The position numbers and the translations under genes were made by a program. A DNA stretch of 33,259 bases from an uncultured Clostridia bacterium. Lineage in GTDB: Bacteria > Bacillota > Clostridia > Christensenellales > Aristaeellaceae. Where the stretch lies: the NCBI GenBank assembly GCA_946626395.1, contig CAMOUF010000207.1:1-33259 (forward strand), read 5' to 3'. Below the pieces are notes generated by a model, which ran no database searches, was not told the DNA's origin, and saw only the letters and a list, made by a program, of their open reading frames with translations. Shown here piece by piece: positions 9,866-14,066 of the stretch (position 1 is the first letter of the stretch; each line of letters starts with the position of its first letter).

Positions 9866-9893
9866 TTGACAATTTGTCAATCTGTGGTAAAAT
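9866..9893 (+). promoter_or_regulatory. promoter overlapped by a 7-1-7 palindromic candidate operator (Fur/Zur-family-like architecture)
   Basis: TTGACA (9866-9871), 16-bp spacer, TAAAAT (9888-9893); perfect palindrome TTGACAA-T-TTGTCAA at 9866-9880. Confidence 0.6.
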
Positions 9894-9923: not shown

Positions 9924-10217
9924 ATGGAGCGCAGAAGGATCGTGGCGTGGGTTTTGTTCGCGCTGATGGCGCTGATGCTGACGGTTTCCTCCGCCTATCT
10001 GGTGATGGCCGCGGGGCATTGCTGCGTGGGGCATCACTGCAAAACCTGCGATTGCGCCTCCCGGGCGGCGGCCGTGCTGTCGGGGTACGTGCTGTTTGCG
10101 GTCACGCTGCTGCTGCTGGCGTTTTCCGCCCGGAGGCGGCAGGCTTCCGTTCAGGAAACGGGGGCCCGGTTCGCGTGCGGCTCTCTGGTGCAGTGGAAGG
10201 TACAATTGAATAATTGA
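9924..10217 (+). CDS. small two-TM protein with Cys/His-rich extracytoplasmic loop
   Basis: MERRRIVAWVLFALMALMLTVSSAYLVMAAGHCCVGHHCKTCDCASRAAAVLSGYVLFAVTLLLLAF; motif HCCVGHHCKTCDC at 10017-10055; good SD (aaaggaggg). Confidence 0.7.
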   Translation: MERRRIVAWVLFALMALMLTVSSAYLVMAAGHCCVGHHCKTCDCASRAAAVLSGYVLFAVTLLLLAFSARRRQASVQETGARFACGSLVQWKVQLNN

Positions 10218-10355: not shown

Positions 10356-11318
10356 ATGAAAAAGCTGTGTATCGGTCTGCTGGTTCTGGCGCTGCTGCTG
10401 GCCCAGGCTTTGCCAGGCCCGGCCCTGGCAGAAGGAGAAAAGCTGAAAATCGTCGCCACCATTTTTCCCCTGTATGATTGGGTGCGGCAAATTGCGGGAG
10501 ACAGCGGAAATGTGGAGCTGACGCTGCTATTGGATACCGGGGCCGACCTGCATAATTTCCAGCCCACGGTGAAGGACATCGTCACCCTGTCCCAGTGCGA
10601 CCTATTTCTGTATGTAGGCGGGGAAAGCGACAGATGGGTGGACGACGTGCTGGAAACCGCCCGCAACGATCATCTCACCCGCCTGAGTATGCTGGACGCT
10701 TTGGGCGACCGGGTCAGGATCGAGGAGATCGTGGAGGGCATGGAGCATGAAGAAGAAGAGCACGGGGAAGAAGAGGAAGAAGAAGCCGACGAGCATGTGT
10801 GGCTGAGCCTGAAAAACGCTCAGGCGCTGGTGGCAAAAATTGCCGATACCCTGTGCGCGTTGGATGCCGCCCACGCCGACGCCTACCGGACCAACACCGC
10901 GGCCTATGAAGAAAAGCTGGCGGCCCTGGACAGGCGGTATCAGGAGGCGGTGAACGCCGCGGCCTTTGATACCCTGGTGTTCGGCGACCGGTTCGCCTTC
11001 CGGTATCTGATGGAGGATTACGGGCTTTCCTATTTCGCCGCCTTCTCCGGCTGCTCCGCGGAAACGGAAGCCAGCTTCCAGACCATCCTGTTCCTGGCAA
11101 ACAAGGTCAATGAATTGGGCCTCCGCGCCATCATGACCCTGGAAAGCCCCAAGACCCGCATCGCCGAAACGGTGCGGGACGCCACGGAAACGAAAAATCA
11201 AAAGCTGCTGAGCCTGAATTCCATGCAGTCCATCACCTCTGGAGACGTGGCGGCGGGGGCCAATTACCTGACCATCATGGAAGAAAACCTGCAGGTGCTG
11301 CGGGAAGCGCTGAACTAA
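10356..11318 (+). CDS. znuA: zinc ABC transporter substrate-binding protein (ZnuA-like, cluster A-I)
   Basis: Signal peptide; LKIVATIFPLYDWVRQIAG, GADLHNFQPTVKDI, acidic/His loop EHEEEEHGEEEEEEADEHVWLSLKNAQALV, DTLVFGDRFAFRYLMEDYGL. Confidence 0.9.
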   Translation: MKKLCIGLLVLALLLAQALPGPALAEGEKLKIVATIFPLYDWVRQIAGDSGNVELTLLLDTGADLHNFQPTVKDIVTLSQCDLFLYVGGESDRWVDDVLETARNDHLTRLSMLDALGDRVRIEEIVEGMEHEEEEHGEEEEEEADEHVWLSLKNAQALVAKIADTLCALDAAHADAYRTNTAAYEEKLAALDRRYQEAVNAAAFDTLVFGDRFAFRYLMEDYGLSYFAAFSGCSAETEASFQTILFLANKVNELGLRAIMTLESPKTRIAETVRDATETKNQKLLSLNSMQSITSGDVAAGANYLTIMEENLQVLREALN

Positions 11319-11331
11319 GGAGAAAAAAACA

Positions 11332-12045
11332 ATGGCACTGATCAACGTAAAGGATCTTTCCCTGGGTTACGACGGCCATGAAATACTGACCGGGCTGAAT
11401 TTTTCGGTGGAAGCGGGAAATTATCTGTGCATTGTGGGGGAAAACGGCTCGGGCAAATCCACCCTCATGAAAACCATGCTCAGCCTGCAGCGGCCCCTGT
11501 CCGGCAGCATCGCCTTCGGCGATGGCCTCAAGCCCAACGAAATCGGCTATCTGCCCCAGCAAACCGCCGTGCAGAAGGATTTCCCCGCCACGGTGTGGGA
11601 GATCGTGCGAAGCGGCTGCCAGGCCCGCATGGGCAGGCGCCCCTTTTACAGCAAGGAAGAAAAGCAGCTGGTCCGGGAAAACATGGAGAAAATGGGCATC
11701 ATGCCTTTTGCCAGGCGGTGCTACCGGGAATTGTCCGGGGGCCAGCAGCAGCGGGTGCTCCTGGCCCGGGCCCTGTGCGCCACCCGGAAGCTGCTGCTGC
11801 TGGATGAGCCCGTATCCGGCCTGGACCCCAAGGTGACAGCGGAAATGTATCAGCTGATCGAAAGCCTGAACCGGCAGGAGGGCGTGACCATCATCATGAT
11901 TTCCCACGACATTGCCGCCGCCGTGCGCTATGCTACCCACATCCTCCACGTGGGGCATCAGGTGTTTTTCGGCCCGGTGGAGGAATACGTCCACAGCCCC
12001 ATTGCCCGGCGGTTTCTGGACGCGGAAGGAGGGAAGCAGGCATGA
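11332..12045 (+). CDS. znuC: zinc ABC transporter ATP-binding protein
   Basis: Walker A GENGSGKST, signature LSGGQQQR, Walker B LLLLDEP; ZnuC-type length and context. Confidence 0.92.
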   Translation: MALINVKDLSLGYDGHEILTGLNFSVEAGNYLCIVGENGSGKSTLMKTMLSLQRPLSGSIAFGDGLKPNEIGYLPQQTAVQKDFPATVWEIVRSGCQARMGRRPFYSKEEKQLVRENMEKMGIMPFARRCYRELSGGQQQRVLLARALCATRKLLLLDEPVSGLDPKVTAEMYQLIESLNRQEGVTIIMISHDIAAAVRYATHILHVGHQVFFGPVEEYVHSPIARRFLDAEGGKQA

Positions 12046-12881
12046 ACAATCTTTCCCTGTATTTGAGCCTGCCCTATGTGCAGAACGCCCTGATCGTGGC
12101 GGTGCTGATTGCCCTGTGCTCCTCCCTGCTGGGGGTGACGCTGGTGCTGAAGCGGTTTTCCTTTATCGGCGACGGCCTGTCCCACGTGGCCTTTGGGGCC
12201 ATGGCTGTGGCCAGCGTGCTGCGGCTGACCAATCAAATGCTGCTGGCGCTGCCGCTGACGGTGCTGTGCGCCGTGCTGCTGCTGCGCACCGGGCAGAACA
12301 CGAAAATCAAGGGCGACGCCGCCGTGGCCATGATTTCCGTGGGCGCGCTGGCCCTGGGATATTTGCTGCTGAACAAATCCCCTTACCGCTCCGGCAACGT
12401 GTCCGCCGACGTATGCTCCTCCCTGTTCGGCTCCACCTCCATCATGACCTTGAAGCAGAACGAGGTGTGGCTGTGCGAGGGGCTGTCCGTGGCGGTGGTG
12501 ATCATCTTCATCCTGTTTTACCATAAAATTTTCGCCGTCACCTTTGACGAGGATTTTGCCAAGGCGGCAGGCACCCGGGCGGAGGCCTATAACCTGCTCA
12601 TCGCCGTGGTCATTGCCGTCATCATTGTGCTGGCCATGAACCTGGTGGGCTCCCTGCTGATTTCCGCCCTGATCATTTCCCCCGCCATGAGCGCCATGCG
12701 GCTGTTCCGCAGCTTCAAGGGCGTCACCCTTTGCTCGGCGGTGCTGTCGGTGACCTGCGCGGTTCTGGGCATTATGATTTCCATTGTGGCCGATACGCCG
12801 GTGGGCTCCACCATCGTGGCGGCGGATATGCTGGTGTTCCTGATCTGCTGGGGGCTGAGCCTGGCAGGCGTGAAGCTGTAA
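12042..12881 (+). CDS. znuB: zinc ABC transporter permease
   Basis: ABC-3 family: LIALCSSLLGVTLVLKRFSFIGDGLSHVAFGAMA, NLVGSLLISALIISPAMSAM; overlaps znuC stop. Confidence 0.92.
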   Translation: MNNLSLYLSLPYVQNALIVAVLIALCSSLLGVTLVLKRFSFIGDGLSHVAFGAMAVASVLRLTNQMLLALPLTVLCAVLLLRTGQNTKIKGDAAVAMISVGALALGYLLLNKSPYRSGNVSADVCSSLFGSTSIMTLKQNEVWLCEGLSVAVVIIFILFYHKIFAVTFDEDFAKAAGTRAEAYNLLIAVVIAVIIVLAMNLVGSLLISALIISPAMSAMRLFRSFKGVTLCSAVLSVTCAVLGIMISIVADTPVGSTIVAADMLVFLICWGLSLAGVKL

Positions 12882-12898: not shown

Positions 12899-13633
12899 AT
12901 GAAGAAAAAAGGACTTTTGCTGGCGCTGCTGCTGATCGTCGCCCTGCTGTGCGCGGGCTGCGGAAACAACGAAAGCGCAGCCTCCGCCGGCGGCGAAAAA
13001 ACCGCCGCGGAGGTGCCCGTGGTGCTGAACCAGGCGGAATACCTGCTGTATCAGAACATCTTCTATAACAATTACGGCAGCCAGTACACCGGCCAGCCGG
13101 CGACCAAGAACGGCGTGTTCACCGTGCTCCAGGACGCCTATTCCAATGTGACCCGCTATTATGTGTGGGGCTTCCTGGACAACACCAGGTGCTGCGACTG
13201 GCAATGGGAAATCGTGCCCCGGGACACCAAGAACCTGCCCGCCCCCGGCTCTCTGGTCACGGTGAGCGGCGCGTTCATGGCGGATGAAAAGGCCCTGGAC
13301 GGCTACTGGATCGCCGACGCCCAAATTCAAACAGTGGTTTCCTTTACAGGGGAAAGCGCGGAACTGAACATGCGCACCATGAGCGATACCCTGGAGCGGG
13401 TGCAGGTGATCAATATTGCCAACAAGCCCGAATCCTTTGAAGGAAAAACCTTCACGGCGTACGGCCGCGTGGCGGGCCCCGGCGTTCTGGAAGATCCGTA
13501 TTACGACGGCTCCTGGCAGATCCTGTATCAGGGGCAGACCACCGCGTCCATGACCATCGGCACCATGATCAATCTGAGCGGTACGGTGGCCTCCGGCGCC
13601 TTGAACGCCACCACCGTGGCGCTTGCGCAATGA
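12899..13633 (+). CDS. lipoprotein with OB-like repeats and a CC motif, last-but-one gene of the znu operon
   Basis: Lipobox LLCAGC; TRCCDWQWEIVPRDTKNLPAPGSLVTVSG matches the neighbour's TACCAQGLEFVPKEGVELPEPGSNVTVTG; 17-nt gap to znuB. Confidence 0.75.
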   Translation: MKKKGLLLALLLIVALLCAGCGNNESAASAGGEKTAAEVPVVLNQAEYLLYQNIFYNNYGSQYTGQPATKNGVFTVLQDAYSNVTRYYVWGFLDNTRCCDWQWEIVPRDTKNLPAPGSLVTVSGAFMADEKALDGYWIADAQIQTVVSFTGESAELNMRTMSDTLERVQVINIANKPESFEGKTFTAYGRVAGPGVLEDPYYDGSWQILYQGQTTASMTIGTMINLSGTVASGALNATTVALAQ

Positions 13634-13646
13634 GGAGGAAGGAAAA

Positions 13647-14066
13647 ATGAAACGAAAGCTCTTTTCTCTCCTTCTGGCCCTGCTTTTCGCAGTTTCCCCT
13701 TTGGCCGCTTTGGGCGAGGGCATGCCCCAGATTGATTTGGATTTAAGCGGCATGAGCAGCCTGATCGTTTTTTCCCAGGTAGCCGCCATGATGGAAGACC
13801 CCAGCCAGTATGAAGGCAAGGTGGTGCGGGTGTCCGGGTATTATGATTATATCGACGATCTGTATACCAATAACCTGTATCACCTGTGCATGATCGCCGA
13901 CGTGACCGCCTGCTGCGCCCAGGGCCTGGAATTCGTGCCCAAGGAAGGGGTGGAGCTGCCGGAACCCGGCTCCAATGTCACCGTCACGGGACGCTTTGAA
14001 ATCTATTATGAGGATCAGGATATGTACGTCCATTTAGTGGACGCGGATATCCTGTGCTCTGATTGA
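13647..14066 (+). CDS. secreted CC-motif OB-like protein, last gene of the znu operon
   Basis: Signal peptide MKRKLFSLLLALLFAVSPLAALGEG; MEDPSQYEGKVVRVSGYYDYI ... ADVTACCAQGLEFVPKEGVELPEPGSNVTVTGRFE; SD ggagg. Confidence 0.75.
   Translation: MKRKLFSLLLALLFAVSPLAALGEGMPQIDLDLSGMSSLIVFSQVAAMMEDPSQYEGKVVRVSGYYDYIDDLYTNNLYHLCMIADVTACCAQGLEFVPKEGVELPEPGSNVTVTGRFEIYYEDQDMYVHLVDADILCSD

Follow-up and report, generated by a model that had tools for sequence, protein, structure and literature searches.

ZinT resembles a lipocalin and carries a His site. As an extracytoplasmic zinc helper of ZnuABC it is found either alone or joined to ZnuA; AdcA is indeed such a fusion of ZinT to ZnuA, and a Pht domain is fused to AdcAII (PMC6689063). 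The operon-encoded AztD passes zinc to AztC, a substrate-binding protein (SBP) of cluster A-I (PMC6689063). A third system, YcgQ (ScfB, TIGR03943), is a fitness factor of unknown function (PMC5584981), whose C-terminal part is the domain DUF1980_C (PF21537).

Here we describe a lipoprotein (LP) and a secreted protein (SP), encoded side by side in a clostridial znu operon, which resemble each of these systems in part. Like ZinT and AdcA they would be extracytoplasmic zinc helpers of ZnuABC that occur stand-alone or fused to ZnuA, but they are predicted OB barrels with two adjacent cysteines (CC) and no conserved His, and no search that we ran showed homology to ZinT. Like AztD they are operon-encoded and may deliver zinc to the SBP; AztD, however, has His sites and an unrelated fold, and we found no sequence relation to SP or LP. 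With DUF1980_C, SP shares a Y-x-G-K-x-[VI] strand, the CC ahead of strand 3 and a V-x-[VL]-[TS]-[GA] strand. Compared to YcgQ, the two proteins are exported (signal peptide or lipobox), tied to ZnuABC, and devoid of both the N-terminal two-TM DUF1980 domain and an adjacent YcgR-type permease. The Klebsiella protein 3f1z, a putative nucleic acid-binding lipoprotein (PF12869), is likewise an exported lipoprotein with an OB fold, but it matches with a Foldseek E of 1.8e-3 and an hmmsearch E of 0.29 only, and we found no tie to a znu operon. ZepA was considered as a possible relative and discarded; the paper describing it (PMC10957091) mentions neither DUF1980, YcgQ, an OB-fold nor cysteine.

Two adjacent exported proteins of a znu operon

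The window, by which we mean the whole stretch of 33,259 nucleotides that was analysed, co-encodes ZnuA, an ABC ATPase and an ABC-3 permease (PF01297, PF00005, PF00950) and hence contains an importer operon of the ZnuABC type. That zinc is the substrate is assumed from homology. LP and SP close the tight gene array, with gaps of 17 nt before LP and 13 nt before SP:

9866 to 9893, plus strand: promoter-like TTGACA-16-TAAAAT, whose first hexamer opens the palindrome TTGACAATTTGTCAA
9866 to 9880: palindrome TTGACAATTTGTCAA of perfect 7-1-7 symmetry, which overlaps with the -35-like hexamer; a possible operator, at a guess
9924 to 10217, plus strand: small membrane protein of 97 aa, H-C-C-x4-C-x2-C flanked by two hydrophobic stretches; probable gene 1 of the operon
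10356 to 11318, plus strand: znuA, metal-binding SBP of cluster A-I (PF01297, 5e-69), a variant with Cys233 present and the third His ligand absent
11332 to 12045, plus strand: znuC, ATPase (PF00005), AztA/ZnuC-like
12042 to 12881, plus strand: znuB, permease (PF00950, 1.8e-50)
12899 to 13633, plus strand: LP, lipoprotein of 244 aa with two predicted tandem OB modules, module 1 (about 44-148) with CC and module 2 (about 152-244) without
13190 to 13195, plus strand: codons of LP Cys98-Cys99, invariant in 27/27 sequences
13647 to 14066, plus strand: SP, secreted protein of 139 aa with one predicted OB module containing CC
13911 to 13916, plus strand: codons of SP Cys89-Cys90, in the loop preceding strand 3, invariant in 60/60 sequences

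For these last two genes the original prediction had proposed a shared domain, one lipid-anchored and one apparently free or N-anchored protein, and a duplication within LP. Indeed, blastp aligns LP with SP at 37% identity across 84 residues, cysteine pair on cysteine pair (E 3e-13), the profile-profile comparison gave P 1.5e-15, and the CC codons lie exactly where they had been placed. LP has the lipobox L-C-A-G-C with C21, and SP has a signal peptide and no lipobox; the distinction between a protein with a lipid anchor and one lacking it is correct but confined to this genome, since a good many of the SP relatives are themselves lipoproteins. The LP segment said to resemble its neighbour was recovered as well: the SP profile scores 49.4 against LP residues 152-244 in hhalign (at most 24.1 in 100 column shuffles), and the two LP modules score 32.0 against each other (at most 22.4 in the shuffles), which supports the duplication. 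Module 2 contains no cysteines, yet is homologous by profile to the CC module; it either lost its cysteines or never had any. Neither LP nor SP matched a curated family in the Pfam and NCBIfam searches, the PDB sequence search with the SP, LP and DUF1980_C profiles gave no significant match, and a literature search found, with the terms used, nothing on the exported family, which is hitherto without a name.

The AlphaFold2 model of SP, built from an alignment of 54 sequences, has a mean pLDDT of 93 and shows a helix and a five-stranded OB barrel: after the signal helix follow a helix at 38-50 and strands at 59-71, 76-84, 91-98, 110-122 and 125-137, with Cys89-90 in the loop immediately ahead of strand 3. 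In the LP model (27 sequences, mean pLDDT 89.5) the same order of helix and strands occurs twice, as helix 45-55 and strands 67-79, 84-92, 100-107, 119-128 and 136-149 in module 1, and as helix 163-175 and strands 184-193, 196-198, 207-211, 223-231 and 234-242 in module 2. SP and both LP modules are therefore OB-fold proteins as judged by their predicted five-stranded barrels, and the unrelated folds that would have spoken against tandem OB-like domains were not seen. The best Foldseek matches are OB-fold proteins too (PriB, SSB and the lipoprotein 3f1z), with modest significance (E values near 1e-3 or poorer, TM scores around 0.4-0.58). With 13.3 bits against a cut-off of 23.5 bits, SP is not a member of the tRNA_anti-like family PF12869.

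The cysteine pair proved to be conserved among orthologues, as had been anticipated: it is invariant in 60/60 SP relatives, in 11/11 LP relatives and in 27/27 members of a wider LP set. It lies inside the best-matching segment of 166 of 168 proteins, and the other two carry it outside the scored segment. Apart from CC, the overall identity within the SP family is 32%. Besides CC, the only position invariant in the 60 SP sequences is an Asp four residues ahead of the first Cys; G-x-E-F follows the pair in 93-98% of them, and the corresponding LP motif reads L-D-x-T-x-C-C-D-W-Q-W-E. Across the whole SP family we found no conserved His.

SP relatives occur in 106/300 genomes of the same family (with LP matches and some weak hits counted in), in 28/297 genomes of the order (a sample containing same-family members) and, with a narrower profile, in 8/300 genomes of the phylum. 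LP is rarer, being present at full length in about 27/300 family genomes. In the species-representative collection, 398 candidate stretches encode an SP relative; this search used a closer SP subset, the first alignment being too diverse, and a related-locus search with the single SP protein as query gave no match. Most hosts are Clostridia of the gut and rumen, presumably anaerobic; the named hits include Lachnospiraceae, Ruminococcus, Oscillospiraceae, Christensenella-type MAGs and Treponema socranskii.

Relation to DUF1980_C and linkage to ZnuABC

The comparison with the C-terminal domain of DUF1980, which the original prediction had suggested, turned out positive for the SP profile. Against 28 DUF1980_C domains of the same order hhalign gave P 7.6e-7 with CC on CC, and with the domain only the score was 38.6, of which 100 column shuffles never exceeded half (maximum 19.2). 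This argues for common ancestry with the cysteine pairs aligned. LP and SP themselves stay below the gathering cut-off of PF21537 (25.9 bits) and are thus not DUF1980_C members. Four proteins that directly follow znuB, however, bridge the gap, reaching 31-47 bits on PF21537, above the cut-off, and also matching the SP profile (loci L199, L200, L201 and L203). Because of the profile match and of these bridging proteins scored by both models, we regard the SP family, on sequence grounds, as a branch of the DUF1980_C (PF21537) superfamily that has diverged and is exported. LP alone against DUF1980_C is not significant, so that its connection runs through SP only. To full-length TIGR03943/DUF1980 (YcgQ) no window protein gave a match at E up to 1, and the best intermediates reach 33-52 bits, under the cut-off of 88.8 bits, and hence are not full-length members.

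In its ordinary form within the order (L096-L125), DUF1980_C follows a CobW-type GTPase domain (PF02492) in the same polypeptide, and these fusions are presumably cytoplasmic. One of them (L101:943-1884) adjoins a COG0523 gene whose product has a CxCC motif as well as a stretch rich in His. COG0523 proteins have been tied to zinc homeostasis (PMC2770081); the CobW/COG0523 neighbourhood is a second zinc-related setting of DUF1980_C.

More importantly, 158 of 168 distinct SP/LP proteins have a znuA, znuB or znuC gene no more than 3 kb away in the same orientation. The other ten comprise four at contig edges and six unlinked ones. Duplicates were removed before counting, but the sampled genomes come from related lineages and are not independent. 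The maps of neighbouring genes in the relatives, made only with profiles for the znu genes, SP and LP, gave the gene orders A-C-B-SP, A-C-B-LP-SP and A-SP-C-B-LP, two tandem SP genes, and A-SP without C and B. The link to znu thus survives rearrangement and, judging from the A-SP pairs, is closest to ZnuA. A Lachnospiraceae MAG even joins ZnuA and a CC-bearing SP domain in one protein of 467 aa (L266:4017-5420; PF01297 E 5.9e-58), with znuC and then znuB downstream. Fusion and linkage together point to ZnuA as the partner of SP. The same ZnuA clade occurs in many genomes without SP or LP, showing that the helper is dispensable.

Possible function of the cysteine pair

We propose, with a probability of roughly 60%, that SP and LP assist ZnuABC from outside the cytoplasm, capturing zinc with their cysteine pair and handing it to ZnuA. 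CC would form a thiolate metal site on the OB barrel, which is capped by a helix and placed in the DUF1980_C superfamily, with the invariant Asp (-4 from the first Cys) and a conserved Glu (+5 from the second) as candidate co-ligands. LP would be kept at the membrane by its lipid, and SP by proximity or, in other species, by a lipid of its own. Both could catch zinc outside the cell and load ZnuA, so that uptake is raised under zinc scarcity, and the cysteine-less module 2 of LP may serve interaction or spacing. We infer metal binding at CC, zinc as the metal, the direction of transfer and the role of module 2. Only two Cys plus carboxylates are available as candidate ligands, and the helper is dispensable; both are points against this reading.

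OB folds are general platforms for ligands and for protein interaction, and LP module 2 is well conserved though free of Cys. Both observations would suit docking or assembly modules that link ZnuA with the permease or the envelope, bind no metal and use CC structurally, for example in barrel packing. We consider this unlikely. Two adjacent Cys that remain invariant in a family of such low identity, and in exported as well as presumably cytoplasmic contexts, exceed packing needs.

Vicinal cysteines outside the membrane had initially been read as either a metal site or a redox disulfide. In the second case, SP and LP would maintain exported thiols, namely Cys233 of ZnuA and those of the small HxCx4CxxC protein, in the reduced state, or a vicinal disulfide would gate their activity. 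Indeed, they are exported, and further invariant exported Cys are encoded within the same operon. The window's operon encodes no thioredoxin-like protein or reductase, however, the predicted fold is an OB and not a thioredoxin fold, and the hosts would for the most part live without oxygen. Additionally, the same CC is present in the CobW-type fusions, in whose presumed cytoplasmic location vicinal disulfides are unlikely; an obligate disulfide thereby becomes improbable and a metal site likelier. Because of these fusions and of the znu linkage we favour the metal site, and regard the redox function as quite unlikely.

That the barrel binds a small molecule or nucleic acid, such as a zinc-chelate or metallophore, rather than the free ion, would fit the nucleic-acid-binding OB proteins and Klebsiella 3f1z at the top of the Foldseek list and the weak PF12869 match, but is very improbable, since these Foldseek matches reflect the common fold at the E and TM values given above, and the operon in the window contains no chelator-synthesis gene.

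If zinc capture by CC is correct, SP and LP add a further solution, unrelated to ZinT and AztD, for the same task, and the widespread DUF1980_C domain, so far of unknown function, gains a zinc-uptake context. The soluble domain of about 110 residues makes zinc binding and transfer to ZnuA directly testable.

Upstream region, ZnuA variant and small membrane protein

As to regulation, we found no Fur-family regulator in the organism's own genome, a 71%-complete MAG, and identified neither a Zur box nor a conserved operator when the palindrome TTGACAATTTGTCAA was used as query against the relatives. They share its -35-like half only, the right half not being conserved, so that it is at best a candidate operator.

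The ZnuA clade of the window retains H66, H147 and E263 (Asp in some), and carries D211-R212 in place of the Gln-His of AdcA and B. subtilis YcdH, whose His is the third ligand. Cys233 is invariant in the clade, and H66/H147/R212/C233 are found in nearly all of 180 aligned relatives. The metal site is possibly Cys-ligated. The idea that this ZnuA form, with Cys233 and without the His, co-evolved with SP had to be rejected: ZnuAs from SP-less operons carry the same residues, which makes Cys233 a trait of the ZnuA clade and not an adaptation to SP.

The small membrane protein belongs to no Pfam or NCBIfam family. A protein with an HxCx4CxxC-type motif stands upstream of 97 of the 172 znuA genes that have enough upstream sequence, and relatives of the small protein are encoded ahead of znuA in many Clostridia as well as in Treponema. 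Among 83 relatives H, G and a C-terminal K-x-R-L-N are conserved (in its longer form K-[VI]-[RQ]-L-N-N/D); the conservation of Gly and of K-x-R-L-N is independent of the search motif. Together, the motif of this protein and Cys233 of ZnuA suggest that thiols matter throughout the operon. One may tentatively speculate that the whole operon is an extracytoplasmic thiol zinc relay, in which the small protein, the Cys233 ZnuA and the CC OB proteins would pass the metal from thiolate to thiolate into ZnuBC. Although we find this doubtful, it would, if true, define a mechanistically distinct class of ZnuABC in anaerobes.

At two further loci (L063:6251-6748 and L047:7768-8735) the small HxCx4CxxC gene lies immediately beside SP or is joined to it in frame, with znuACB absent; these are operon remnants, left by a deletion or by an assembly artefact.
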